Source: Crateriforma conspicua (GTDB taxonomy: Bacteria; Planctomycetota; Planctomycetia; Pirellulales; Pirellulaceae). Taken from it: a DNA stretch of 64,000 bases. This document shows positions 33,697 through 40,612 of this stretch, one piece after another. Under the pieces are notes generated by a model. It was not told where the DNA came from. It saw nothing but the letters and a program-made list of their open reading frames with translations, and did not search any database. A program made the translations under genes and the position numbers. Location of the stretch: the NCBI RefSeq assembly GCF_007752935.1, contig NZ_CP036319.1, positions 1,240,001 through 1,304,000 on the forward strand, given 5' to 3'. How positions within the stretch are numbered: position 1 is the stretch's first letter; each line of letters begins with the position of its first letter.

Positions 33697-34518
33697 TCAG
33701 GCCGCCATGCGTTGGGGTTGTTCCGCGGCGACTTCTTGGGCCATCACTTCTTCGGCCAAGGCGCGATAGTCCGCCGCACCGTTGCTTTCGCCGCTGTACT
33801 GGAAAATCGACTGGCCGAAACTGGGGGCTTCGGCAAGACGGATGTTGCGGCGGATGCGAGTGTCAAAGAACTGGGCGTCTTGGAAGAAACGCCGCGAGCC
33901 GGTGTTGGCGGCAAAGAATTCGTCGATGTCCGTGCTGACTTCCGCGGCCAAGCGGGTATTCGAATCGTACATGCACAGCATCACGCCGGTCAGACGCAGT
34001 TGTGAATTCAGCCGACGCGAAACCACTTCGATCGTCCGCAACAACTTGCTAAGCCCGTGCAGCGCGAGGAAGTGTGGCTGCAGCGGCAAGAAGACTTCCC
34101 CCACAGCGACCAGCGCGTTGACCGTCAACACGCCAAGGCTGGGCGGGCAATCCAGAATGAAGTAATCGTACGGTTCTTCGTCCGCGTCCATTTTGTCACG
34201 CAGGATCATTTCCCTTCCGACTTCGCTGGCCAGTTCCAGTTCCGATGCGGCCAAATCCAAGTTGGCCGGCACGATCGAAAGATTGTCCGAAAGGTTGCGA
34301 CGCGCCTGGTCGATGGAAAGGTCACCGCACAGCACTTCGTACATGCTGGGGTCGCCATCCAGTGTGGTGATGCCCAGGTGCAACGATGCGTGCGCCTGGG
34401 GATCCAGGTCAAGGACACAGACGCGGCGTCCGGCTTCGGCCAAAGCGGCGGCCAGGTTCACCGAAGTCGTCGTTTTGCCGACGCCACCCTTTTGATTGAT
34501 CACGGCGATCGATCGCAT
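33697..34518 (-). CDS. ParA-family ATPase
   Basis: From the ATG at 34518 (GGGAG seven bases before it) the protein is 273 residues. The deviant Walker A KGGVGKTTT is at residues 10-18, followed by VCVLDLDPQAHASLHLG and LDCPPSLGVLTVNAL. This is a standard ParA/Soj ATPase for partition or protein positioning. No parB gene or parS-like site is visible here, so an orphan role is possible. The small gene upstream on the same strand is 53 bases away and probably belongs with it. Confidence 0.92.
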   Translation of the reverse strand: MRSIAVINQKGGVGKTTTSVNLAAALAEAGRRVCVLDLDPQAHASLHLGITTLDGDPSMYEVLCGDLSIDQARRNLSDNLSIVPANLDLAASELELASEVGREMILRDKMDADEEPYDYFILDCPPSLGVLTVNALVAVGEVFLPLQPHFLALHGLSKLLRTIEVVSRRLNSQLRLTGVMLCMYDSNTRLAAEVSTDIDEFFAANTGSRRFFQDAQFFDTRIRRNIRLAEAPSFGQSIFQYSGESNGAADYRALAEEVMAQEVAAEQPQRMAA

Positions 34519-34571
34519 GTTGGTCTCCCTGCAGTTTGGAATTGCGAGCGGTACGCTGCCCACTTGAAAGT

Positions 34572-35003
34572 TCAAGAAGCCCGCCGCCGGGACAGCTGTT
34601 GATAGGCTAATAGCACGTCGTACAGGTCCGCGTCGATACGAACCGGGTCGTCCGCGAAATCGTGCAGCCAAGATCGACCGTTTTCCGCGGCCTCCATCAA
34701 TAGCGGCATCAGGGTTTTGACGGACACCGAAACGGTCTTGGCTTCCGCGGTTCCGCTGACGCGGTCCAGTTCTTTTTCCAGACGTCGTATGTCGGCATCG
34801 GACAACAAACGCGGCGGATCGTCGTCGGGGACGTCGATTGGTGCGATGTCGGTTTGCCCAACCGGCGTTTCGCGTTCGTCATGGATCGCGGTCGGTTGGA
34901 CGGGACGTTCGGTATGGCTGGCGTCGTGACCCAGGGTCGAATCGGGCTTTGGCGGCAAAGCTTCGTCGTCGCCTTGGTACAGACGCAAATCGGGATTCGT
35001 CAT
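34572..35003 (-). CDS. Conserved hypothetical partner of the ParA-like ATPase
   Basis: 143 residues, acidic, no membrane segment. The first 70 residues are low-complexity with many Asp and Pro; the second half is helical (ADIRRLEKELDRVSG, then KTLMPLLMEAAENGRSWLHDF, and IDADLYDVLLAYQQLSR). I recognise no family. Position directly upstream of parA suggests a regulator or adaptor of that ATPase, but it does not resemble ParB. Confidence 0.72.
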   Translation of the reverse strand: MTNPDLRLYQGDDEALPPKPDSTLGHDASHTERPVQPTAIHDERETPVGQTDIAPIDVPDDDPPRLLSDADIRRLEKELDRVSGTAEAKTVSVSVKTLMPLLMEAAENGRSWLHDFADDPVRIDADLYDVLLAYQQLSRRRAS

Positions 35004-35528
35004 GGCGTTTATCGGAACTGGTTTCCCGGTCGTTCAAAACTGATGCATCCGGGGGCGCCGGCGATTGCTGCCTTGATGGCACAGTCGTGGCGATCCCCAT
35101 GCGGCGATCGGTCGTTGCCGCCGGTCGGGACGTGCCCGGGGCGACAACGGTGCGGCGACACCCGTTGGCGTCGCTGCCGCGGAGGCTAGCTACCAAACGG
35201 ACTTCGATGGTCGCTAGGGCTTCCTGGGTATTTCCCGAAAATGGTTGGTCGGCGGCCGTTTTTCACGCCCGGAATCAATAGTTTTTTTGTCCATCCTGCG
35301 GCCCGGTCTAGCCGCCAAACGTCGTTTTTTGCGGGGTTTCCGCACGCCGGCCGGTCGTGATCATTTGCCCCCGCGATCGCTCTTGGCTCGGTTTCACGGA
35401 TTCGACTAAACTTTTGCCGCAGACCTGCCGACCGGCCTGGTCCCCTGCGCAACGAACAAGCCGCATGATGTGGCTGGTGTACGGCGGGTCATCGGCGGCC
35501 GATGGTCGAAAAATTGGGAGGGATACCA
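35004..35528. other. Divergent intergenic region of 525 bases
   Basis: There are no convincing genes. It separates the small parA partner (minus) from the SbcD-like gene (plus). A TGCGG-N5-CCGCA hairpin lies at 35330-35344. A strong ribosome-binding site, GGGAGGG at 35516-35522, precedes the ATG at 35529 by six bases. Confidence 0.5.
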
Positions 35529-36788
35529 ATGCCGGGCGAATCATTTCGCTTCATTCACGCCAGCGACTTTCACCTCGAACGTCCTCTGGGCGATTTGGAT
35601 CAGCTGCCGCCGCATCTGCGGGACGCACTGGCCGACGCACCACGATCGGCTGCTGCCGCGGTCTTTGATGCGGCGACCGCCGACAACATCGACTTTTTGG
35701 TGCTGTGTGGTGATCTGGTGAATCCTTCCACCGCCGGCCCGCACGCAATGGCGTTGCTGCTGGACGGTTTTGAAAAGCTGCACGCCAAGAAGACACCGGT
35801 CTTTTGGAGCGCCGGGGTGGCCGACGACCCACAACGTTGGCCCGATGCCGCACCGTTGCCGCCCAATGTGACGTTGTTCCCCAAGGATCGCGCCATCGCG
35901 GTTCCGGTCCAGCGCAGCGGCCGAACCATCTGCCACGTCATCGGGCGCAGCAGCGACGGACGCAGCACGTTGCATGTCCCTGGCTATCGCATTGATCCCG
36001 TCGATGAATTTACGGTTGCCATCGGGCACGGATCCGCGGAGGCCGCGGCCCTGGCCGAAGGCCATTTTGATTACTGGGCGTTGGGTGGGCGACACAACCG
36101 ACAAGAAATCGAACAAGGGGCCAACGCCGCCGCCGTTCAGTGTGGAACACCACAGGGACGTTGCTTGCAGGAAACCGGACCGCACGGCTATTGCGTCGTC
36201 GATGTGGATTCGGACCAAACGACGCGGGTCCACCAAGTGGAATGCGATACGTTTCGATACTGTCACGAACAGATCGATGCATCGGAGGTGATTCAGGTCG
36301 GCACGCTGAAGAATCTGTTGGGCGAACGTATTGCCCGCCTGGCCCACGAAAACGGCGGACGTCAGTTGCTGATCGGCTGGGAAATCAACGTCGCCACCGC
36401 GGAGCATTTGTCGGCGATCGGCGATCCGGACGAAACGTTGCGTTGGCTGCGTCGCGAATACGGCCACGGAACACCGGCGGCTTGGTCGATTGCATTGACC
36501 GTCAATCCGCCCCGGCAGTTCCCCAAGTCTTGGAATGACGAAGACACGATTCTGGGCGACTTTTTGCGTGCCACAGCGAAGCATCGTGAAAACGACAGCC
36601 GCGAATTGAATTTGTTGCCGTTCACCGAAGAACATGAAATCGGCCAACCAGGCGGGTTGCCGACGACGACGTCCAGTCTGCTGGCGGAAATCGCTGCATC
36701 GGATCGCGGACGGTTGCTGGACCAGGCGACGCTGCTTGGTGTCGATTTGCTCAGAGGCGGGAAGCCCCAGTTGGTGCAAAAATCATGA
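35529..36788 (+). CDS. SbcD-like metallophosphoesterase (DNA repair nuclease subunit)
   Basis: 419 residues from the ATG at 35529 (strong GGGAGGG). Metal motifs: IHASDFHLE (Asp13, His15), VLCGDLVNPS and a GGRHNRQ block in the place of the usual GHxH. This is the calcineurin-like phosphoesterase fold of SbcD/Mre11 nucleases. Its stop overlaps the start of the next gene (ATGA), which encodes the matching SbcC-like ATPase, so I infer a two-subunit nuclease complex acting on DNA ends. Confidence 0.9.
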   Translation: MPGESFRFIHASDFHLERPLGDLDQLPPHLRDALADAPRSAAAAVFDAATADNIDFLVLCGDLVNPSTAGPHAMALLLDGFEKLHAKKTPVFWSAGVADDPQRWPDAAPLPPNVTLFPKDRAIAVPVQRSGRTICHVIGRSSDGRSTLHVPGYRIDPVDEFTVAIGHGSAEAAALAEGHFDYWALGGRHNRQEIEQGANAAAVQCGTPQGRCLQETGPHGYCVVDVDSDQTTRVHQVECDTFRYCHEQIDASEVIQVGTLKNLLGERIARLAHENGGRQLLIGWEINVATAEHLSAIGDPDETLRWLRREYGHGTPAAWSIALTVNPPRQFPKSWNDEDTILGDFLRATAKHRENDSRELNLLPFTEEHEIGQPGGLPTTTSSLLAEIAASDRGRLLDQATLLGVDLLRGGKPQLVQKS

Positions 36789-39700
36789 AGATCAAAGACA
36801 TCCAGATCGATGGTTTCGGTGTTTGGACCGGCCTTTCGGTCGACTCGATGCCCGAAGGCATGACGCTGTTTTACGGGCCCAACGAAGCCGGCAAGACGAC
36901 GCTGATGCAGTTCATCCGCGCGATGCTGTACGGCTTCACGCAAGAACGTCGCGAAAAATACTTGCCCCCGATCCATGGCGGCACCCCCGGCGGTGCGCTG
37001 CGTGTGACGGGCCCCGGCGGTGGCTATGAGATTCGCCGCACGTCACAGTTGACCGACAACAGCGCGACCGGTCGTCTGACGGTGACCGGCCAAGACGGCT
37101 TGTCACAGGGCCAGCATCGTCTGGGCAGTTTGTTGGGACAGATCGACGAGCCCATCTTTACCAACGTGTTTGCCATCGGCATTCGCGAACTTCAGGAACT
37201 GAGCACGCTGGACGGAACGGCCGCAGCGGACGAACTGTACAAACTGTCCAGTGGTTTGGATCGCGTGTCGCTGGTCGACGTGCTGCGCGGACTTCGTGCC
37301 GGTCGCCAAGACTTGGTCGGGCAATCAGGTGGCGAACAAGAACAGCAACAAAACCGACTGTTCGGCATGCTGAAACGCCGCGAAAACCTTCGCCGCGAAG
37401 TCGAACAACTGACGCGGCACAGTCGCCGCTGGACCGAATTGGCCAGCCAACGCCGCGCCCAACAGCATGAGATTGAACAGCTGTCCGAACGCATGGGCAG
37501 TTGGGAAAAGGAAGCCAAGTGCGTTGAAACCGCCACCAGCGTTCTGGATACGTGGCAGCAGCGTGACGCATTGCAGGAAGAGATCCGCCAGACCGAACTG
37601 CAAACCGAATTGCCCGACGAAGCACCCGGGCAGTTGGTCCAGATCGATGCGATGATGGACGAACGTCGCGCGAAGCTGGAGGAAATCAAAGCCAAGCGAC
37701 GCGAGGTTCGCGAGAAAGCTGAACAGTTGCCCGTCAGCCGGCGGATGTTGGAACTGCAAGGACGCATCGAAGCGGCCACCGAACAGGCGACGTGGGTCGA
37801 AGCACTTGAAGAACAAATCGAACGCCTGGATGCCCAGGTCGACAAGGCGCGGAAACAATTGGAATCCGATGCCGATCGGTTGGGGATCGACGAAGAAGAC
37901 CGCGCAGCGATCTGTCGTGGTGATCTGCATTGTTTGCCCGACTTGTCCAAGCAAACCTTGACGGCCTTGGCTGAGCCAGCCCGGAACGTTAAGGAAGCGA
38001 TGTATGCCCTGAAGCAGGCACGCAACGAAGGATTGGCTCATAAGAAAAAGGCCGACCAACTGCGTGAAGACTTGGACGAAGTCTTGCGTCGTGCGAATGC
38101 GAACAACTTGCAACAAGCGATCCGTCAACAGAACGATCGCATCAACGTGCTTCGCCAACGCATCCAATTGGGCGAACACCTGGACAAGCTGAAACGGCAC
38201 TATCGCGATCTGGAACGCGAGTCGGTCGACTTGGCCACCGACGAGGCATTGCCGGTCGATCGGATGCTATTGCTGGGCGTGCCGTTCTTTGCCGGCGGCG
38301 CGCTGTTGATGTATGGCTTGTTCCATCTGTTGAACATCCAAACGTTTGTGGCACAGCCGGACCCGACCTACGGGATGCTGTATCTGACGTTGGGCATGAT
38401 CGCGATGTTGATCTTCTACATGGGACGCGAAAATGGCCGCCGTGCCAATTCGTTGGACCTGGAGGATTGCGAACGTCAGATCGAATCGATTCGTCGCCAA
38501 ATCCGCGACCTGGAATCGGAAGCCAACGATGTCGATGCGTCGCTGCCGAGCAACGCCGAAAACTTGCAACAACGATTGCGTGATGCCGAATCTTTGGCCG
38601 CCGATCTGGACGCGGCCCTGCCGACCTACCACAGCCAAGCCGCCGCCGACCAAGCGTACAAGTCGGCGCGTTCGCGTGCATCCAAGGCTGCGGATGATTT
38701 GAAGGCGTCTCGCCGCGCATGGGCATCTACCTTGGAACGCCTGGGATTAAGCGAATCGATGTCGCCGCAAAGCGTTCGAAAGCTTGGCGATGGCTACGAA
38801 ACACTGCAGGCCAGCATCCGCCGCGTGGATGAGCTGAAGGCCGAACGTGAACAACGTCAACGTGAAATGCAAACGTTGGCAAAACGCATCGAAGACCTGT
38901 ACCTGGAAGCATTGGAAGTCCAACGCGAATCGGTCGATGAAGATGCGTTGATGTATGAGGATGACGAAGACGACAAGGCCCAACAGCAACGCATCGTCGC
39001 CCGGCCTCGCACCGGCCCGTTGGACCAGTTGAACCACTTGCAAGAAGAACTGTCGCGTCAGCGGCACTGGATCAAGCGTCGTCGAACGTTGAAAGACCAA
39101 GACGACCATTACAAGAAACAGCAGGCCGGACACGCTCGGGCAATCGAACGAGGCGAACAACAGCGTCGTGCGTTGTGGGCCAAATGTGGCGTGGCGACTG
39201 CCGAGCAGTTCTACGAGTTGGTCGACGCCAAGGCGCGTTTGCGTGAAATGCGAATCCAAATCAAAGAACTGGATCAACAAGTCCGCAAAATCATTGGCAC
39301 CCATGTCGACTATGACGAAGTGGCCACGGCGATCGACGGCGCGACCGCCCAAGACTTGGACAAGCGTTGGGAATCGTTGACGACGCGGATGACCGAGACG
39401 GAAGAACGCGTCGCTTTGCTGCGGACTCAGCAGGGTCAGCTGGCACAAGAAATGAAACAGCTGGGCGAAGACGGCCGCTTGACCGTGGCGCAATTGGAAC
39501 TGGAATGCCTGGATCGACAGATCGCATCGGCGACACGACGGTGGCAAACGCTGGCGATGGCCAGCAGTTTGTTGGAAGACGTTTGCAGCACGGTTGAACG
39601 TGAACGACAACCGGAAACCTTGCGCGAAGCATCATCGTTCTTGAGCCAATTGACCGACGGAAAGTACACGCGTATCTGGACGCCGCTGGGCACCAGCAAG

Positions 39701-40612
39701 CTGAAGATTGACGATGCCGAAGGCAACTCGTTGCCGCTGGAGGTGCTAAGCCGTGGGACGGGGGAAGCCGTGTTCATCGCATTGCGACTGTCACTCGCCG
39801 CCGCCTATTCACGCCGCGGCGTGATGTTGCCGTTGGTCTTGGACGACGTCCTGGTGAACTTTGACCGGGAACGCGCCGTCAGTGCCGCCCGCACGTTGAA
39901 GACGTTCGCGGAACTGGGCCACCAAGTAATGATGTTTACTTGTCACGACCACATCGTTGAAATCTTTCACGACATCGACGTGCAGGTCCGGCAATTGCCC
40001 ACGCAAGGCGAACCCGGTCGGGCGGAAGTCTTGCCGCCGCCGGTTTACGAAGAAGAACCGGTGGAATACGAGGAAGAAGAGATCACCGTCGCCGAGCCCG
40101 TGGTGGAATTGGAAGAAGAGCAGCCGGAGGTGGTCACGCCGCGAATTCAGTTCATCCAAAAGTCACTGAAGAAGCCTCAAACCAAAACGGTGGTTGTCGA
40201 AAAGCCTGTGCCGGTTCCCGTCGAACCGAAGGTGATTGTCCAACCGGCACCGCCGAAGCCCGAGCCCAAACCAGAACCGGCAAAGCCGCGTCCGTTACCC
40301 CAGCCGAAACCCGAACCCCGGCCCGAACCTGAGCCGGTGTACGAATACATCGAGGAAGTGGAGTACCTGGACGATGAACCAGAGTCCAGTTCCCTGGATT
40401 GGGCATGGTTCCAACGTGAACCCGCCGACGGTCGGATCGACGATGACGAAGCCGTGGCAGAAATCGCACGCAGCGAATGGGTGGGCGACGAATCATTGGC
40501 CGCCATGAATACCAATCGGCACGCCCGTCGTGACGTCGGTCAACCGGCACATCCCGGTGATGCACCGGGAGACGACGGATCGTGGTGGGACGGCGCCCGA
40601 GCGGCAAGCTGA
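36785..40612 (+). CDS. SbcC/YhaN-like ATPase with an internal membrane hairpin and acidic/Pro-rich tail
   Basis: 1275 residues. Walker A FYGPNEAGKTT at 29-39 and, at the far end, LSRGTGEAVFIALRLS with LPLVLDDVLVNFD give the split ABC head of the SMC/Rad50/SbcC type. Between them lie long coiled coils. Unusually, residues about 493-511 (VPFFAGGALLMYGLFHL) and 525-547 (PTYGMLYLTLGMIAMLIFYMG) are two hydrophobic segments, suggesting a membrane hairpin in place of the zinc hook. From about 1079 to the end, a Glu/Pro/Lys-rich tail with TonB-like PxP repeats is added. I infer a membrane-attached DNA-end or stress-related ATPase working with the SbcD-like subunit. Confidence 0.9.
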   Translation: MKIKDIQIDGFGVWTGLSVDSMPEGMTLFYGPNEAGKTTLMQFIRAMLYGFTQERREKYLPPIHGGTPGGALRVTGPGGGYEIRRTSQLTDNSATGRLTVTGQDGLSQGQHRLGSLLGQIDEPIFTNVFAIGIRELQELSTLDGTAAADELYKLSSGLDRVSLVDVLRGLRAGRQDLVGQSGGEQEQQQNRLFGMLKRRENLRREVEQLTRHSRRWTELASQRRAQQHEIEQLSERMGSWEKEAKCVETATSVLDTWQQRDALQEEIRQTELQTELPDEAPGQLVQIDAMMDERRAKLEEIKAKRREVREKAEQLPVSRRMLELQGRIEAATEQATWVEALEEQIERLDAQVDKARKQLESDADRLGIDEEDRAAICRGDLHCLPDLSKQTLTALAEPARNVKEAMYALKQARNEGLAHKKKADQLREDLDEVLRRANANNLQQAIRQQNDRINVLRQRIQLGEHLDKLKRHYRDLERESVDLATDEALPVDRMLLLGVPFFAGGALLMYGLFHLLNIQTFVAQPDPTYGMLYLTLGMIAMLIFYMGRENGRRANSLDLEDCERQIESIRRQIRDLESEANDVDASLPSNAENLQQRLRDAESLAADLDAALPTYHSQAAADQAYKSARSRASKAADDLKASRRAWASTLERLGLSESMSPQSVRKLGDGYETLQASIRRVDELKAEREQRQREMQTLAKRIEDLYLEALEVQRESVDEDALMYEDDEDDKAQQQRIVARPRTGPLDQLNHLQEELSRQRHWIKRRRTLKDQDDHYKKQQAGHARAIERGEQQRRALWAKCGVATAEQFYELVDAKARLREMRIQIKELDQQVRKIIGTHVDYDEVATAIDGATAQDLDKRWESLTTRMTETEERVALLRTQQGQLAQEMKQLGEDGRLTVAQLELECLDRQIASATRRWQTLAMASSLLEDVCSTVERERQPETLREASSFLSQLTDGKYTRIWTPLGTSKLKIDDAEGNSLPLEVLSRGTGEAVFIALRLSLAAAYSRRGVMLPLVLDDVLVNFDRERAVSAARTLKTFAELGHQVMMFTCHDHIVEIFHDIDVQVRQLPTQGEPGRAEVLPPPVYEEEPVEYEEEEITVAEPVVELEEEQPEVVTPRIQFIQKSLKKPQTKTVVVEKPVPVPVEPKVIVQPAPPKPEPKPEPAKPRPLPQPKPEPRPEPEPVYEYIEEVEYLDDEPESSSLDWAWFQREPADGRIDDDEAVAEIARSEWVGDESLAAMNTNRHARRDVGQPAHPGDAPGDDGSWWDGARAAS

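Follow-up and report, generated by a model that had tools for sequence, protein, structure and literature searches.

A Rad50/SMC-type ATPase with a predicted membrane hairpin and a catalytically degenerate Mre11-fold partner in planctomycetes

The ATPase and its hydrophobic hairpin

The window, that is, the whole stretch of 64,000 nucleotides of the Crateriforma conspicua genome analyzed here, carries on its forward strand two genes that overlap by ATGA. The second of them (36785..40612, +) is an ORF encoding a Rad50/SMC-type ATPase of 1,275 residues, the head of which matches AAA_27 (PF13514), the YhaN/SbcE-like family, with 52.4 bits against a Pfam cut-off of 22. Its Walker A (GPNEAGKT, 36875..36898, +), ABC signature (LSRGT, 39746..39760, +), and Walker B (LVLDD, 39833..39847, +) motifs are recognized in the sequence. 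Hereafter, we refer to its close relatives with a hairpin as type A and to the paralogous pair without a hairpin in these planctomycetes as type B; in all 35 type A ATPases, Walker A (pattern NExGK[ST]), signature, Walker B, and the TCH of the H-loop are intact. An AlphaFold model of residues 1–1081 (mean pLDDT 80.6, pTM only 0.41) resembles SMC and Rad50 structures in a structure search, which agrees with the SbcC-like ATPase proposed by a sequence-only reading of this locus. By its profile match and motifs, the protein belongs to the AAA_27 ATPases of the YhaN/SbcE kind.

Between the coiled-coil arms, where Rad50 and SbcC have their zinc hook, the same reading had pointed to two hydrophobic segments. 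These are indeed present, as a hairpin spanning residues 494–547, and no CxxC zinc hook occurs anywhere in the window ATPase sequence. Hydropathy and the AlphaFold model both delineate a first helix at residues 494–513 (38264..38323, +) and a second at residues 530–547 (38372..38425, +), the modeled helices extending over residues 491–515 and 527–586. The best 19-residue Kyte–Doolittle means are 1.92 for the first segment and a borderline 1.61 for the second; since the hydropathy maximum of shuffled ATPase cores averages 1.47 with a 99.9th percentile of 2.47, these values lie within chance, and we discarded the hydropathy maximum as proof of a membrane segment. The depletion of charge is more telling: only 1 of 54 hairpin residues is charged in the genus-mate L037, whose sequence there is that of the window, against 31% of D/E/K/R in the core, which by a rough calculation that takes residues as independent would be expected in fewer than 1e-4 of proteins; over the 35 type A proteins, the nearly charge-free stretch has a median length of about 53 residues.

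Comparison across planctomycetes, which the sequence-only reading had called for, recovered the same layout in 35 of 35 type A proteins and in none of the 20 of type B. At the hairpin position, hydropathy ranges from 1.72 to 2.70 in the former (35/35) versus 0.30 to 1.00 in the latter (20/20), and the top hairpin-less value reaches 1.51 (L093) when a wider stretch is scored. At equal distance from the P-loop, 14% of residues are charged in type A (n = 35) versus 38% in hairpin-less proteins (n = 30). Two glycines within the helices, Gly504 and Gly537, are conserved in at least 90% of cases. The hairpin is likewise found in all 75 of the named loci that reach this region; these named loci are the best 80 of 472 by similarity and partly repeat the other genomes compared (67 have a partner ORF, 75 reach the hairpin, and 73 have a complete tail). 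With regard to orientation, Lys and Arg amount to 2.0 per 15 residues before the hairpin and 2.7 after it for a protein average of about 2.1; because the flanks are thus near average, charge does not establish the orientation, and the positive-inside rule was set aside. Overall, these sequence patterns lend good support to a predicted membrane hairpin where Rad50 and SbcC would have the zinc hook, and insertion of the ATPase into the membrane via this predicted hairpin is likely.

An Mre11-fold partner with degenerate catalytic motifs

The upstream gene (35502..36788, +), which the sequence-only reading had left unmentioned and which is defined by its ORF, Pfam, and Foldseek, encodes a partner of 428 residues with an Mre11/SbcD fold and degenerate catalytic residues; its likelier start is at 35529 (MPGESF), as the nearest relatives have the same start. 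It matches the calcineurin-type phosphoesterase family PF00149 with 28.5 bits, and its structure model (pLDDT 87.3) has P. furiosus Mre11 (3dsd, E 4.2e-14) as best Foldseek match, the best 50 of 75 matches at E 0.001 all being Mre11 or SbcD, on their own or as part of complexes. Its motifs read SDFH, CGDL, AGVADD, IGHG, and LGGRH: AGVADD (35811..35828, +) replaces the catalytic GNHD by alignment, with loss of the Asn and of the catalytic His, and LGGRH (36081..36095, +) replaces GHxH, with loss of the first His. Of the eight active-site residues, which we take to be the catalytic His plus seven metal ligands, five are kept in the genus-mate L037, and the window partner has the same motifs. With five of eight retained, residual metal binding by the partner is possible.

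This degeneration is general in type A. None of the 34 type A partners compared has a complete GNHD or a complete GHxH, whereas all 20 type B partners have both motifs and indeed all eight active-site residues. Residue by residue, type A partners keep the motif I Asp in 30 cases and His in 22, the motif II Asp in 24, the motif III Asn and catalytic His in 1 each, the motif IV His in 12, and the motif V first and second His in 0 and 19 (n = 34 throughout); 10 of the 34 retain two or fewer of the eight. For the named partners (n = 67), the counts are 66 and 59 for the motif I Asp and His, 55 for the motif II Asp, 2 and 0 for the motif III Asn and catalytic His, 27 for the motif IV His, and 0 and 55 for the two His of motif V. 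By alignment, complete GNHD and GHxH are found in none of these 67 proteins; the letters GNHD do occur in three of them, but elsewhere in the protein. The proposal of a nuclease complex anchored in the membrane or envelope is thus not supported, both motifs being incomplete in 34 of 34 type A and 67 of 67 named partners. Judged by its alignment and structure model, the window partner has the Mre11 fold but lacks the catalytic His and the full set of metal ligands expected of Mre11/SbcD.

Sequencing error or pseudogene decay was considered as an explanation of the motif loss and rejected, given that all 34 type A partners share it and that dN/dS is about 0.03. Between the window and its genus-mate, dN/dS is 0.031 for the partner and 0.035 for the ATPase, within which the core (0.021) and the tail (0.139) differ. 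The codon comparison thus indicates a partner under strong purifying selection, not one in decay. Over 120 pairs from 16 genomes with both types, partner identity is lower in type A than in type B (0.334 vs. 0.417) and ATPase identity is higher (0.342 vs. 0.254), the type B ATPase value being possibly lowered by two deep subgroups and poorly alignable coils. These identities suggest that constraint shifted from the nuclease to the ATPase in type A.

Tail, neighborhood, and distribution of the pair

The ATPase ends in a Pro/Glu-rich and, from its composition, probably disordered tail of 200 residues (40010..40612, +). The sequence-only reading had described about 200 residues rich in Glu, Pro, and Lys, of which the length, the Glu (17%), and the Pro (17%) are borne out when Lys, at only 5%, is weak; this make-up is in any case not conserved, many relatives being merely acidic. 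It had also called the tail TonB-like. The likeness is one of composition, with 17 EP or KP dipeptides in the window tail, as a Pfam search with the window ATPase returned no TonB family at E 0.01. Moreover, were the hairpin inserted, its two membrane segments would lie between the halves of one head, and therefore this C-terminal tail would be on the ATPase side, where it could not reach across to the envelope as TonB does.

What recurs in the tail is aromatic. The window has a DWAWF motif (40397..40411, +) and a GSWWDG tip (40577..40594, +). DWxWF-like motifs recur in the tails of the nearest relatives, and WW lies within the last 30 residues of 13 of 31 type A tails, against a mean of 0.39 and a maximum of 3 in shuffles. 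This set derives from the 35 type A proteins after removal of L057 and L061 (<60 aa) and of L044 and L055 (end of sequence), the window replacing L037. Among named tails, 31 of 70 have the WW (shuffles: mean 0.85, maximum 5), these being related sequences from overlapping sets; more than half of the tails lack it. Tail length separates the two types (median 153 aa, at least 81 aa in 33 of 35 type A proteins vs. median 13.5, range 2–60, in type B), the 11 rows without a recognized H-loop giving no length. Long extensions of other make-up occur beside active partners (L136, L137, L141, L142, and Deinococcus L097), and 5 of 8 inactive relatives from other families have tails of 6–12 aa. The long tail is therefore, as far as sequence comparison goes, tied to the group of the window and not to catalytic loss itself.

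Other C-termini deserve mention in their own right. L118, from another family of the class, and L119 both go with an inactive partner and extend by 194 aa at the C-terminus, where a Pfam scan of L118 identified DUF4332; no paper on DUF4332 with planctomycetes was found in the open-licence literature. A loose QxxLF-like C-terminal pattern, which we presume from its consensus to resemble the sliding-clamp binding motif, is found in 6 of 30 hairpin-less ATPases (L075, L078, L082, L088, L089, and L091; shuffles: mean 0.17, maximum 2) and in 0 of 32 of type A.

Partner and ATPase genes are adjacent in 21 of 21 neighborhoods and form the sole content common to all, clusters of overlapping opposite-strand ORFs being ignored as shadows of this pair. 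In 5 of these 21, the flank holds a gene for a UvrD-type helicase, identified by Pfam in L152: in L152, L162, and L165 it adjoins the pair upstream, with the same orientation, in L159 it lies about 1.8 kb upstream, and in L154 it is on the opposite side. It is also upstream in 4 of the 80 named loci, although the flanks are short in many of these, and none was seen in the cluster of the window among the 21 neighborhoods examined. Such a neighbor fits a DNA-related role. In the window, a ParA-like ATPase gene (33697–34671, −) lies near the pair.

From a distribution perspective, a type B partner (at least 537 bits, next best 175) is present in 20 of the 40 related genomes, the window genome being without one; in 18 of the 40, that of the window included, the inactive type A pair is the sole strong match to the partner family, 5 of these 18 (G003, G021, G025, G033, and G034) having a further, weaker place of 51–109 bits. 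Type B occupies 21 places in 20 genomes, and the 20 proteins compared come from 19 of the 40 genomes also searched for type A, the place in G028 being left out. The type A genes of G010 and G017 were excluded (broken contigs), G006 had no type A gene, and G029 had type B only; both counts omit further ATPase matches, for example in G008, G016, G019, and G024. One second AAA_27 match is found in the window genome at about 5.82 Mb, near a GNHD phosphoesterase (L073 / L002). The SbcC model TIGR00618 matches 2 of the 40 related genomes (G003 and G011) and 11 of 14 controls at E 1e-10, and 0 of 40 and 1 of 14, respectively, above its strict cut-off.

At the scale of the phylum, the partner profile finds a match at 1e-15 in 39 of 159 genomes drawn. 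This survey listed 49 places, of which 40 were compared (duplicates, second gene pieces, G132, G058, and G175:C2 were omitted); together with 4 non-planctomycete pairs (n = 44), all eight active-site residues are found in 33 partners, 2 lack the catalytic His alone, and 9 have at most four residues. Planctomycetes combining the hairpin with an intact partner are present elsewhere in the phylum. To trace these combinations, we consider a head tree of 97 sequences, obtained by a quick search with 35 of 94 inner branches weak and no root inferred, which requires the inactive state to have changed at least three times and the hairpin at least twice. Its rows comprise 42 with hairpin and inactive partner, 19 with hairpin and active partner, 31 with neither hairpin nor inactivation, and a single one without hairpin and with an inactive partner (L132), 4 more being incomplete or missing only one residue. 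L132 is a second copy in genome G063, hairpin-less, with a 407-aa C-terminal extension. L127, L128, and L145 have lost only the catalytic His (GNAD, GNED) and lie near a fully degenerate locus on the tree; they could possibly represent intermediates of nuclease loss. Because relatives from Bacillota and Deinococcus have the hairpin, we infer that it is the ancestral condition, from which the hairpin-less form arose. The active paralogues lost the hairpin in about one event on the tree, and the link between hairpin and inactivity therefore does not represent many independent cases.

Relation to known complexes and candidate roles

Among known systems, the closest likeness is to SbcEF (YhaN/YhaO), with which the window pair shares an AAA_27 ATPase, a hairpin between the arms, and an Mre11-type gene directly upstream. 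The hairpin occurs in relatives from Listeria, Enterococcus, Latilactobacillus, and Deinococcus, and on this comparison is not new in itself. The pairs of the first three are apparently SbcE/YhaN with YhaO; an HD-domain gene follows in two of these three Bacillota loci (Listeria, Enterococcus, and Latilactobacillus), which presumably corresponds to the yhaONM order. The differences lie elsewhere: Bacillota partners (3/3) and that of Deinococcus keep the eight active-site residues, whereas the window pair has lost its catalytic residues, and Bacillota ATPase tails measure 0–8 aa against 200 aa in the window. Compared with Mre11–Rad50 and SbcCD, the pair shares the Rad50/SMC head with arms and the Mre11 fold of the partner, but it lacks the CxxC hook, has a hairpin instead, and has a degenerate partner. 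Type B pairs have the same two-gene layout and heads, but no hairpin, a short tail, and an intact active site. On these sequence comparisons, the window pair would be a new variant of SbcEF and not a member of SbcEF as a nuclease. In the open-licence literature, the titles and abstract openings among the matches listed mention no nuclease-dead or membrane-anchored complex of this kind. As for SbcEF itself, a 2025 paper uses this name for YhaN/YhaO (PMC12748557); in B. pumilus, yhaONM is described as a putative cluster for the repair of double-strand breaks and is placed in the LexA/SOS regulon (PMC3896406), and an interaction listing gives B. subtilis SbcE as an interactor of YabT/SpoIIE, YabT being a transmembrane kinase (PMC4205851).

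The layout, the fold (by model), the loss of catalytic residues, the purifying selection, and the recurrent tip can be read from the sequences themselves. On this basis, our main reading is that of a nuclease-dead, membrane-anchored SbcEF-like ATPase complex that would tether or sense DNA, to which we give a probability of roughly 0.5. The two genes would encode a derived SbcEF-type Mre11–Rad50-like complex, with the ATPase heads and the Mre11-fold subunit in the cytoplasm, coiled coils that may reach up to about 40 nm (300 arm residues at 0.15 nm, minus breaks), and the two-helix hairpin at the coiled-coil tip inserting into the inner membrane. The partner, its nuclease catalysis lost, would be retained for a role in structure or DNA binding; the whole would most likely work as an ATP-gated clamp, either keeping DNA close to the membrane or reporting on that DNA, and the flexible head-borne tail would recruit another protein via its aromatic tip. 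DNA tethering or signaling by the pair is here deduced from its family, and DNA binding and tail recruitment are postulated as well. A more specific version is put forward tentatively, with the odds slightly against it: that in planctomycetes a membrane-anchored Mre11–Rad50-like complex became, at least three times, a nuclease-dead, ATP-gated tether between chromosome and inner membrane, and that in the group of the window this tether would have gained a flexible arm with an aromatic tip and would be the sole complex of the family in nearly half of the related genomes.

Alternatively, the pair might be a regulatory scaffold, in which DNA ends or stalled forks are sensed by the inactive complex and the tail brings in an enzyme in trans, such as a helicase or a different nuclease, the membrane being a mere platform. 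The long type A tails with their recurrent aromatic tip speak for such recruitment, as does the UvrD-type helicase adjoining the pair in three neighborhoods; however, this neighbor is a minority feature with no instance seen in the cluster of the window, and long extensions also accompany active partners. We regard the scaffold as rather unlikely. Still harder to defend is the idea of the sequence-only reading, a working nuclease complex held at the membrane, which would here need a changed metal site: the Mre11 fold, the motif I and II residues still kept (Asp 30/34, His 22/34, and Asp 24/34), and the hairpins paired with intact partners elsewhere in the phylum would accommodate it, but the catalytic His persists in 1 of 34 partners, none of the 34 has the first His of motif V, and 10 keep at most two of the eight residues. 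Similarly improbable are soluble hydrophobic helices buried in a tip-to-tip dimerization zipper, an analogue of the hinge or hook, which the position at the arm tip, the second modeled helix continuing into the coiled coil, the moderate window hydropathy, and the average flanking charge would suit, but which sits poorly with some 53 nearly charge-free residues and with the entry "Membrane (SPI)" given to Staphylococcus haemolyticus YhaN in a surface-shaving table (PMC7137321).

Should the reading as a nuclease-dead, membrane-anchored complex be right, its interest would extend beyond this locus. Mre11–Rad50 complexes are regarded as nucleases whose tethering role is hard to separate, and here is a lineage in which the catalytic residues have been dropped while the ATPase is strongly selected and the predicted anchor kept, making the separation of nuclease and tethering functions testable. 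The pair also raises the question of how DNA ends are processed in these bacteria and, in a phylum with an unusual cell organization, offers a candidate link between chromosome and membrane.
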